Origin: Anaerovibrio sp. JC8
Lineage (GTDB): Bacteria > Bacillota > Negativicutes > Selenomonadales > Selenomonadaceae
DNA length: 64,000 bases
Assembly (NCBI RefSeq): GCF_002100115.1
Contig: NZ_ANBM01000012.1
Location: 1-64,000 of the forward strand
Direction: 5' to 3'
Part shown: positions 439 through 5,800 of the stretch, in pieces
Layout of the letters: each line of letters opens with the position of its first letter
Numbering within the stretch: the first letter of the stretch is position 1
The notes under the pieces: generated by a model
Told to the model about the DNA's origin: nothing
Databases searched by the model: none
The model's input: the letters and a program-made list of their open reading frames with translations, nothing else
Program-made: the position numbers and the translations under genes

Positions 439-589
439 GATTTACACCCCCATTTTAAATCATTTATCCACTTATTTCTCTACTTAAATTATATTTTTTC
501 GGATATAAAAAACAATTCTTCACTGGCAATAAAAAAGCCCATTCAAATTGCTCATGTATACAAAATTATTAAAAAAGGGGATAAAAGGA

Positions 590-1535
590 AGCCACCCACA
601 AACAGATCTCCGGCACAGCCGGAGCTTTACTTTGCACTACTGGGTGCCACCGATGGAAGTGAGCCGTGAAAGCGGGGCGGCTTACCATACGTCCAGCCAC
701 CCCACTTTCCCGTCTGCACTGCTCGAAGTGTTACGGCCGGATGAAAGCGTATGGCCTCGTTCCGCATTAAATGAGTCCATACCCTTTCACCGTATAGGGG
801 CTATCGTCTACTACAGGGCCAGTAAGCGGCCGCTGCAAGCAGCCGCCGCCCCTTCTCCAAGGTTAGGCCCCGGAGGGTATCACTACACCCAGGGGCGCAG
901 TCATACCCCCGGAAAAAGGTTCCATCCAGCTCCAAGAGAGTAGCAGTAGATAGAGCCGTTGGCTCCATCCCCTGCAGATGGTGGCCTTCCGCCGGAGTCG
1001 GAAGCCATTTAAAAGGCAGGGCTGACTTTAGCCGATGATCCCCGCCCTGAATAAACCGCCCCGGACTACTTGCACCTTCCTTGGGAGCCCTCCAGCGGCT
1101 CCCCGAAGGTGGGGACGAATAAAAGCCCTGTCCCATTACATGACCTAATTGTATAGAGAATTTTACCCCTATTTTTGGTATAAAATCTGCTATACATTTT
1201 GGTCGTATATTTTCAGCAGCTCCAAGTTTAGGCCCAGGAGTATGGGTTTGAGCCACCTTCTCTGTGTTTTTATCTTGGCCGTTGGGGGAAGGTGTCTCCA
1301 TCCTCATAAGGCAGGCCATTTTACTTCCGATAAACGCCGGAGAGCTTATCGAAACGCCTGGCTCTGTGCTGGGGGCCAATGGTTCCGATAAGCACATTTA
1401 TCGAAAGTAAGATGTCCATTCCTACCTTCTCTCCCTCGCGGGACCCCGCCCGAGAGCCGGGGACGCGCCAGCACACAGCCACTGAAATAACCAACCAGTT
1501 TCGCGCCGCCGCACCCCCGCCGTAAGCCCGCCCCA
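590..1535 (-). ncRNA. Large ornate structured RNA candidate (~0.95 kb)
   Basis: This GC-rich block shows no convincing protein gene but contains many helices. Examples are 608-614/618-624; 879-885 region with 905-915; 953-957/961-965; 965-969/977-981; 1017-1023/1124-1130; 1072-1078/1105-1111 capped by 1083-1089/1097-1103; and a long-range 13-position helix 1360-1372/1468-1480 with one mismatch. Several stems need G-U pairs that exist only in the minus-strand transcript (around 882-900, 1326-1353, 1383-1407), which argues for minus transcription. One stem (659-666/678-685) fits plus better. Size and complexity recall the GOLLD and ROOL giant RNA classes; I cannot assign it to either. Ends are approximate. 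A GC-rich hairpin near 608-624 followed by a T-tract near 575-580 may mark the 3' end. Confidence 0.55.
1326..1407 (-). repeat. Twin hairpins with identical stems
   Basis: On the minus strand two stem-loops share the same arms, TTTCGATAA and TTATCGGAA, at 1407-1383 and 1353-1326, with different loops (6 and about 12 nt). Each forms nine pairs including one U-G. On the plus strand the same position is a C-A mismatch, so the pairing favours a minus-strand RNA. Because the arms are identical the two hairpins could swap partners. They lie inside the large structured RNA candidate, flanked by the 1360-1372/1468-1480 long-range helix. Confidence 0.6.
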
Positions 1536-1585
1536 ATATCATTATCGTATATTTTGGATATTTTTTTATATTTTTTATCCATATA

Positions 1586-1615
1586 TTGACACATTAACTA
1601 CAACTATTATATAAT
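1586..1615 (+). promoter_or_regulatory. Sigma-70 type promoter for the DUF1659 operon
   Basis: TTGACA at 1586-1591 and TATAAT at 1610-1615, both perfect consensus, with an 18-nt spacer. Transcription should start near 1622 and run through a structured leader into the three small genes. Confidence 0.8.
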
Positions 1616-1621
1616 GGACTC

Positions 1622-1736
1622 GACAAAAATATATCGTTCATGGAATGACGATAAAACCCCGATATTCTTCCCGGCCGGGATGGAATATATATTGTCATTC
1701 CGCAAAAAGTCCGCGGTCTGGCACCGCGGGCTTTTT
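1622..1736 (+). promoter_or_regulatory. Structured 5' leader with intrinsic terminator, candidate cis-regulatory RNA
   Basis: The leader contains a nested hairpin: GGAATGAC (1642-1649) pairs with GTCATTCC (1694-1701), ATATTC (1662-1667) with GAATAT (1683-1688), and the centre is a 12-nt palindrome at 1669-1680. It is followed by a classic terminator, AAAAAGTCCGCGG/CCGCGGGCTTTTT at 1704-1736, some 57 nt before the DUF1659 start codon. One terminator pair is G-U only in the plus-strand RNA. The arrangement suggests regulated read-through. It matches no riboswitch class I know. Confidence 0.55.
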
Positions 1737-1792
1737 GTTTGGGCCCGCGTTTATCTTATCTTATTTTATCTTATTCAAAGGAGGATTATTTT

Positions 1793-2875: not shown

Positions 2876-5800
2876 CTAGCGATTATATTTCTCTACCAGC
2901 TCCGCCAGCCAACGGGCTTTGTCATCTTCCAGGGCTCCTGGCAGCATTCTCCAGCTCCAGTTGCCGCCGGCTGTTCCCGGCAGATTCATACGGTTGCTGC
3001 CATCGAGGGCCAGAACATCCCACAACGGTACAATAGCCGTCCTTGCCCTGGAGGCATAGGCATGCTCTACCATGGCCCGGCACAAGGTCTCACTGTCGGC
3101 CCCTTCCTTGCCCAGGAGCTTTGCCACAGCATCCTTGGTTTCGATGTCTGCATCCTCTTCCAACCAGCCCACTACAGTGTTGTTGTCATGAGTGCCGGTA
3201 TATACCAGACAGTTCTCCGGCTCCACATAATTAATTCTGTGGAAGGCATTAAAGTGCAGCTCAAACTGCAGCACCTTCATGCCCGGATAGCCGCATTTTT
3301 CACGCAGGGCCTCCACCTCATCAGTAATGATGCCCAAGTCCTCTGCAACAATCGGCACACCGCCCAGGGAATCCTTGACTCTCTTAAAGAAGTCCCAGCC
3401 CGGTCCCTTGACCCACTCGCCGTCAATGGCAGTTTCCGCATCACCGTCAACCTCCCAGTAGGCCTCGAAGCCACGGAAGTGATCTATGCGGACCATATTG
3501 AACTGCTCAAACATTCGGGCCATACGGTTCATCCACCAGCGGTAGTCGTCCTTGGCCATTTCATCCCAGTCATATTGCGGATTGCCCCACAGCTGACCGG
3601 TCTTGCTGAAGTAATCAGGCGGTACGCCCGCCACCTTCAATGGCCTGCCATCCTTGCCCAGCTTGAAGAGCTTCTGATTGGCCCAGACATCGGCACTGTT
3701 CTGGGATACAAAAATCGGCATATCACCCAGAATTTTTATGCCCTTGGTATTGGCATAAATCTTCAGCTCCTGCCACTGCTTTGAAAACAGATACTGATAG
3801 AAGCATTCCCTGCCGATATCCTCAGCCAGCTCATGTCTGGCCTTTTTCAACGCCTCAGTATCACGCAGCTTCAGCTCATCCGGCCACTCTATCCAACCGG
3901 CCTGATTCTGCTGCTTGGATATGGCCTTGAAAAGGGCATACTCCTCCAGCCAGTCGGATTCCTGGCTGCAAAATTCCTCAAATACCAGCATATCGTTGGC
4001 ATCGGATCTGGCGAAGAAATTGTCCGCCGCCTTGGCAAGAATCCTGCCCTTGAACTTACGGGCAAATTCATAATCTGTCTTGTTGGTGGCTACAGTTTCA
4101 GGAACCTTGATATCCTCCTCAGTGAGAAGTCCCATATCCACCAGCTTTTCCAGGCTGATAAGCATGGAATTGCCGGCAAAGGCGGATGGAGAGGCATAAG
4201 GCGAATTGCAGTCATCCACCGGTGTCAGCGGCAGTATCTGCCAGATTTTCTGATTGGCCTTGGCCAGGAAGTCCACGAACTCATAGGCCTGGGAGCCAAA
4301 ATCACCTACACCATATTTTGATGGGAAGCTGGTAGGATGCATCAGCACACCGCATTCCCTGGTATACTGGGCTTCCTTCTTCACACATCTATATATCTTC
4401 ACGCTGTAAGGGCACAGGAATACATGGAGCACATCACGTACGGTCTCCAGCTCCCTGCCATCACCAAATACATTGACAAAGCTGCCTGCCCAGAGGTCAC
4501 GAACATCCACATAGGCAGTGCACATTTCCTTGCCCCGGTTCATCAAAATCAGGAAAACATCGTTTTCCGCCGGCTGACCGAAAACATCCTTGCCATCATC
4601 AATTACCCGTGCATAGCCCAGTATATCCCCTTCGGAATAAACCGGCAGGAATTTACCGGTACGCAGGGCCGTATTTTCATTTCTGAGATGAATGAGCTTT
4701 GTGTACCACTCACGCAAAGCCTCATCACCGTTTTCCCAATCATAAGGCAGACGGCAGAACGGGTCCTTGTAACCCTCCATGCCGATTTCATCACCATAAT
4801 AAATACAAGGAACTCCCGGGAAGGTCATCTGCCAGGCAGCCGCCAGCTTCAGACGGTTCTTGCCCAGCTTCAGATGCTCCTCATCCAGCTTAAACCTTGC
4901 CTGAAGTCTCTCCGGCACCCCTTCGCATGAAGGAGCCTCACCCAACAGGGTCAGTATACGCTCACGGTCATGGCTGCCCAAAAGATTCATCATGGCATAG
5001 AAGTTCTGGGCCGGATAATTCTCCTTAAGGCTCATAATCCTGCGGCAGGTCTGATGGCCGTCCACATAACCCAAAAGGAAATCCATCACAATTTTGCGGA
5101 AAGGATAATTCATGGCAGAATCAATCTCATAGCCGCAGAGATAGTGGCGGTTCACCCCATAGGCCACCTTGTTGGAGGCATCCTCCCAAACCTCGCCGAT
5201 AAGCACCGAATCCGGATCTGTCTTTTTCAGCTCCGCATAAAAGGCCTGGCTGAATTTCTCCGGCAGCTCGTCAATAACATCCAGACGCCAGCCGCTGATG
5301 CCCTGCTTGTTCCAATAATGGAGCACACTATCTTCCTTGTTGATAATGTAATCCATATAGGCAGGAGTCTCCTCCCGCACATTTGGAAGGTTCGTAAAGC
5401 CCCACCAGCTCTCATACTTGTCCGGATAATCCACAAAGCTGTACCAGCTGTAATACGGGGAATCCTTGCTCTGACAGGCACCTACAGAATCGTATGTACC
5501 GTATTTATTAAAGTAAATGCTGTCCTCGCCCGTATGGCTGAAAACACCATCCAATATAAATCTTATGCCATATTTTCTGGCTTCTGCACACAGCTCCGCA
5601 AATTCCTCATTGGTACCCAATATTGGGTCCGTCTTCATGTAATTGCCAGTATCATAATGATGATTGCTGGCAGATTCAAATATAGGATTGAGGTATACCA
5701 CCGATATGCCCAGATCCTTCAGATAGGGCAGCTTTTCCCTGATACCGGCAAAATTCCCTCCGAAAAAGTCATAGGCAATAATCTCACCGTTGTCCGGGTC

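Follow-up and report, generated by a model that had tools for sequence, protein, structure and literature searches.

To our knowledge, few bacterial RNA families of close to 1 kb show covariation along their length. GOLLD, ROOL and OLE have proved to form RNA assemblies, and ROOL is carried by phages and prophages, close to tRNA islands (PMC12286853). Among interspersed repeats, the BOX elements of Streptococcus pneumoniae favour convergent slots (PMC3049150). Here, we compare these systems with a unit in the window, by which we mean the whole analyzed stretch of 64,000 nucleotides of Anaerovibrio sp. JC8 (contig NZ_ANBM01000012.1, positions 1 to 64,000). An initial annotation had singled this unit out as a candidate for a non-coding giant structured RNA of no known family and likened it to GOLLD and ROOL. 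It lies near the beginning of C12, a contig of a genome that measures 2.68 Mb and is 99.99% complete; relatives of the same genus include Anaerovibrio lipolyticus strains LB2005 and DSM 3074, A. sp. RM50 and a rumen MAG.

Rfam 15 yielded nothing above threshold and nothing plausible at E up to 10 for the unit, and no family match at E up to 1 at four loci with other copies, which rules out the known Rfam families as the identity of the unit and agrees with the initial annotation. Identity with GOLLD, ROOL or OLE is rejected because their models match neither the window unit nor four loci with other copies: The ROOL model (RF03087) found no match in the window (E up to 10), at the four other loci (E up to 1) or, in a search that was run without a positive control, in 16 Anaerovibrio genomes. 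A group II intron is likewise rejected, as Rfam recognizes no intron core (domain V and others) and RVT_1 is absent from the source genome. A literature search with limited terms returned no paper on the family, which is weak evidence for novelty. The structured-RNA family is apparently new and the initial suspicion of something undescribed apparently justified, given that it has no Rfam match and is found only in Anaerovibrio.

Extent, fold and covarying helices

The unit was delimited by collinear copies with shared ends and by its fold:

557–1540, minus strand: whole structured-RNA unit (fold z −7.4)

This stretch is non-coding, rich in G+C (54.5% vs 35–36% in the flanks) and very stably folded, the minus strand reaching −436.8 kcal/mol compared with a shuffle mean of −372.6 kcal/mol. 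Its ends, as inferred from the copies (5′ at ~1540, 3′ at ~557), lie slightly outside the span of 590–1535 originally proposed; the observation itself holds. Over 580–1560, both strands are far more stable than shuffles (z −7.05 and −6.74); consequently, the strand is not given by folding alone and has to be taken from the relatives. Stops interrupt all six frames in the copies, and the window copy's open frame of 198 aa (801–1397, minus strand) is not retained elsewhere, which confirms that the unit is non-coding. This open frame is the one point in favour of a degenerate protein gene; in view of its loss from the other copies and of the covariation described below, we give that explanation practically no credence, and a protein gene is in practice ruled out.

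Four alignments of copies (A1, n = 14; A2, n = 18; A3, n = 12, 41 pairs; A4, n = 19) span six covarying helices between window positions 1521 and 673, all picked by eye from the same sequences that were scored:

1456–1521, minus strand: 5′ hairpin module, arms 1504–1521 and 1456–1473 (A2)
1314–1417, minus strand: long hairpin domain, outer helix 1397–1417 with 1314–1334 (A1)
986–1004, minus strand: hairpin 999–1004 with 986–991 (A3, helix 1)
943–975, minus strand: hairpin 960–975 with 943–959 (A3, helices 2 and 3)
871–911, minus strand: hairpin 894–911 with 871–889 (A3, helix 4)
673–704, minus strand: 3′ module hairpin 695–704 with 673–682 (A4)

Compensatory changes maintain at least six helices distributed along the unit, so that covariation among homologues, which the initial annotation had named as a check, turned out to be strong. 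The 5′ hairpin, whose module also occurs by itself at other places, exhibits three doubly changed pairs and recurrent changes from G–C to G–U in A2. In the outer helix of the long hairpin domain, which also includes an inner TTATCGGA/TCGATAA helix, 91% of the cells in A1 pair and seven pairs are doubly changed, one pair appears in three Watson–Crick types and one U–G is conserved; sliding the partner by 1–3 bases lowers pairing to 31–45%. Across A3, 94.8% of the cells pair, 16/41 pairs are doubly changed, and 0/500 shuffles reach the score. Individually, helix 1 pairs in 98.6% of the cells (4/6 pairs doubly changed) and helix 4 in 93.8% (7/16), while helices 2 and 3 contain five doubly changed pairs in a hairpin whose length differs between copies. 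The A4 hairpin has a covariation score of 0.365 vs 0.149 when shuffled, with seven of its ten pairs doubly changed.

The helices of A1, A2 and A3 together contain 95 G–U cells vs 11 A–C cells, which identifies the minus strand of the window as the folded strand; the same call, made earlier from G–U pairs in the single sequence, is thus borne out by the relatives. Helices that are kept via compensatory changes, on a fixed strand, argue for a bona fide structured-RNA family, and for the RNA part of the unit we hold this to be very probable from the alignments. Many of the double changes fall between two subfamilies and may reflect few or even single events. Moreover, G–U bias and covariation would also fit a folded single DNA strand, in which G–T pairs would be tolerated as well: One strand would then adopt its fold in single-stranded form while the DNA is transferred, replicated or recombined, and would act as a recombination or transfer site. 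Conjugation-type genes in the accessory regions near some copies, copies at assembly breaks and exchanged flanks are in line with such a DNA-level structure. Its size and multi-domain covariation, however, go beyond known single-strand recombination sites, and GNRA-like loops (for example, CCCGYGAGGG) are in keeping with RNA, which makes it very unlikely.

The initial annotation had also reported a 13-position long-range helix (1360–1372/1468–1480). This helix exists, with 12/13 pairs, but is not consistently kept in the copies: Pairing is possible at only 9–10 of the 13 positions in other copies, no clear partner was found in the second subfamily, and it overlaps the 3′ arm (1456–1473) of the covarying 5′ hairpin. 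Because it is only weakly kept, it would at best be an optional loop–loop contact of some copies.

Copies, modules and distribution

Similarity searches, from which all copy counts derive, place the family at ~20 full, partial or interrupted copies. Two covariance models, R1 for the 5′ module and R2 for the middle domain, each match 6/16 Anaerovibrio genomes and have no match among the other members of the class that were searched (364 genomes from 101 other genera); R1 recovered a copy outside its training set (G009:C80, 61 bits). DNA searches found three more copies in the source genome and others elsewhere in the genus, and with the partial copies added in this way up to nine of the 16 genomes carry something. 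Full copies are mostly 0.85–1.4 kb long and share 59–94% pairwise identity; searches from two other copies returned collinear units of ~1.1–1.4 kb with up to 87–92% identity over most of the length. The 5′ end reads TATGGGTGGGGCGTAYGCCG or similar, the 3′ end GGGTGGCYTCCTT. There are two main subfamilies, and the window copy represents a third, partly chimeric type.

The unit is modular. The 5′ module stands alone at L121, L122, L054 and L059, the 3′ module at L041 (4192–4345), L045 (2214–2290), L037 (10889–11058), L042 and L043, and L120 is a mini copy of ~270 bp with both ends present. Unrelated DNA interrupts some copies (L038, probably L034). Fragmentary, interrupted and mini copies are also compatible with a repeat element.

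Within RNA copies, several different hairpins carry an insertion of the short motif GGCGACGCGAA...GCTAGTNCC, which resembles a nested mini-repeat:

L044 2086–2196: motif site
L122 1003–1117: motif site
L123 1030–1112: motif site
L048 13870–13966: motif site

Genomic setting and apparent exchange between loci

Copies occupy intergenic slots in accessory regions, and their neighbours vary from copy to copy (among them GNAT, TPR, KAP NTPase, flavin reductase and T4SS coupling protein); a conserved protein partner was not found among these neighbours. Ten full or near-full copies have a neighbour that is unambiguous as judged from open frames, and at nine of these the downstream gene is convergent. 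This argues against a leader or riboswitch, and both are rejected for want of a co-directional downstream gene. Upstream lies either a co-directional terminator or, as in the window, a divergent promoter: At three or more copies the RNA starts right where the terminator (T-run) of the upstream gene ends, and divergent promoters with 9 to 12 of 12 matches stand behind the window copy and several others. That of the window belongs to the neighbouring operon and not to the RNA:

1586–1615, plus strand: promoter of the DUF1659-DUF2922-YvrJ operon, 12/12 consensus, directed away from the RNA

No consistent forward promoter for the RNA emerged from 19 upstream regions. Outside the unit, window positions 1614–1745 form the leader of this operon, with a terminator-like hairpin before the first gene, possibly an attenuator; its Rfam match to Thr_leader is weak (33.8 bits, cut-off 55), and the G013 genome contains stretches similar to this leader at several places.

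The initial annotation had further placed the unit near a tRNA-Leu, in the manner of a GOLLD- or ROOL-like RNA on tRNA-bearing mobile DNA. The tRNA-Leu is indeed present near the window unit; a tRNA is found at only 1/17 other loci (on the L048 contig, within ~4 kb of copies), so that the proximity holds here and not for the other copies. Phage and plasmid records contain nothing similar to the unit and four motifs of the family are absent from IMG/VR, for which reason a phage or plasmid origin is rejected. With no model match either, the proposed setting is not upheld. These data also bear on the possibility of an independent giant RNA gene comparable to GOLLD or ROOL, which would form an RNA-only multimer and be duplicated by ordinary recombination, not as an element. 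Size, ornateness, covariation over the whole length and the lack of a protein partner would suit such a gene; against it stand the missing homology to the GOLLD/ROOL families, the missing phage and tRNA association, the lack of an own promoter and the multiple copies including fragments, and we judge it unlikely.

The copies seem to be exchanged or replaced apart from their flanks. At the acetyltransferase locus, the upstream flanks of the source genome and G013 (RM50) are 95.8% identical to within nine bases of the RNA, whereas identity between the RNAs themselves drops to 72.6%; values of 87–93% are reached by RNAs at other loci. This difference between flank and RNA suggests, as far as sequence comparison goes, an independent exchange or replacement of the copies. 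L032, L037 and L121 have ~45 bases with a divergent promoter in common upstream of the RNA, and a second group (L041, L044, L034 and L120) has its own such ~45 bases; hence, the exchanged unit may exceed the folded RNA. Neither a reverse transcriptase (RVT_1) nor a Y1 transposase (Y1_Tnp) has a match in the source genome, and help from a group II intron or from IS200/IS605 is therefore rejected. No target duplication was seen in nine copies, and between the unit termini only a short GGG/CCC match was found.

Several further observations concern the surroundings. The flank 1–592 holds two small minus-strand frames, one at 190–438 (82 aa) and a second that continues past the contig end. It has counterparts with 92–97% identity on two other contigs of the source genome, C21 and C22, where the 557–592 stretch and the downstream 1–556 stand without the rest of the RNA and adjoin repeat-rich coding-like sequence that may belong to an adhesin:

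557–592, minus strand: 3′-most 36 bases of the unit, near-identical on C21 and C22

At 4166–4987, L044 encodes a pair of small proteins that begin like double-glycine leaders (ELEQVAGG, ELEQVVGG) and may be peptides of the bacteriocin type; they lie 2–3 kb away from an RNA copy, and the first of them has no Pfam match. At L047 (9848–14415), a Clp-type protease, a TraG-like T4SS coupling protein and an AAA protein stand in a row beside an RNA remnant, in what is possibly an integrative conjugative element; in G000 and G002, too, similar Clp-type proteins are found close to RNA copies.

Dispersed intergenic copies, a modular layout, single 5′ or 3′ modules, a mini copy with both ends, convergent slots like those of the pneumococcal repeats (PMC3049150) and exchange between loci would all be expected of a non-autonomous interspersed repeat, a scaled-up BOX- or MITE-like element. 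Its terminal modules would serve mobility in trans, and its folded transcript would only influence neighbouring mRNAs and have no function of its own. Yet ~1 kb of internal domains, and not just the ends, retains pairing through compensatory changes, no target duplication was seen, the ends match only by the short GGG/CCC, the source genome is devoid of a Y1 transposase and the unit is not AT-rich, which leaves this repeat a serious but minor possibility.

Favoured reading and comparison with known systems

Dispersed copies and apparently flank-independent exchange, with RVT_1 and Y1_Tnp absent and target duplications not seen, lead us to prefer a giant RNA that would act in trans and be borne by an interspersed element undergoing recombination. 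The RNA itself would be the product and would fold into a scaffold of several domains and act in trans, either by itself or bound to a host protein; the interspersed element would carry this RNA, fill intergenic slots of accessory regions and move between loci by recombination or some mobility function. Action in trans appears the most likely function, and for the statement as a whole, that is, an Anaerovibrio-only, trans-acting structured RNA of ~0.85–1.4 kb on an exchanging interspersed element, our confidence is a little better than even. A bolder version, which we find rather doubtful, equates the mobile element essentially with one giant folded RNA: Free of any protein gene, it would spread or be exchanged among intergenic sites, and the RNA would do the work as scaffold, ribozyme or multimer. 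A family that is restricted to one genus, multicopy, intergenic and without an evident promoter of its own is invisible from the window alone. As another giant RNA family, present in rumen bacteria that are in culture (A. lipolyticus, A. sp. RM50), it would make giant-RNA function testable in isolates.

Group IIC introns have the habit of sitting directly behind intrinsic terminators, and several Anaerovibrio copies resemble them as large structured RNAs in just this position; in contrast to these introns, the unit has no Rfam intron match and no GUGYG start, and the source genome is without reverse transcriptase. With ROOL (RF03087), the Anaerovibrio RNA shares its very large size, ornate and non-coding nature, occurrence in rumen bacteria and lack of a known protein partner, but it resides in multiple chromosomal intergenic copies and not in phages or tRNA islands. 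GOLLD and OLE are alike in size class and whole-length covariation; the unit differs from both in that Rfam searches up to E = 10 give no match, and from GOLLD also in having no phage link. As in BOX elements and MITEs, the copies are interspersed, modular, intergenic and folded, and the trait of a dispersed multicopy intergenic modular repeat is present in the Anaerovibrio family; its unit, however, is several times longer, G+C-rich, structurally constrained in its internal domains and without clear inverted repeats or target duplication. It is a structured RNA of large size whose dispersed, modular form is unusual, and dispersal like a repeat, instead of occurrence as single copies in phages, would connect large structured RNAs with interspersed and mobile elements.
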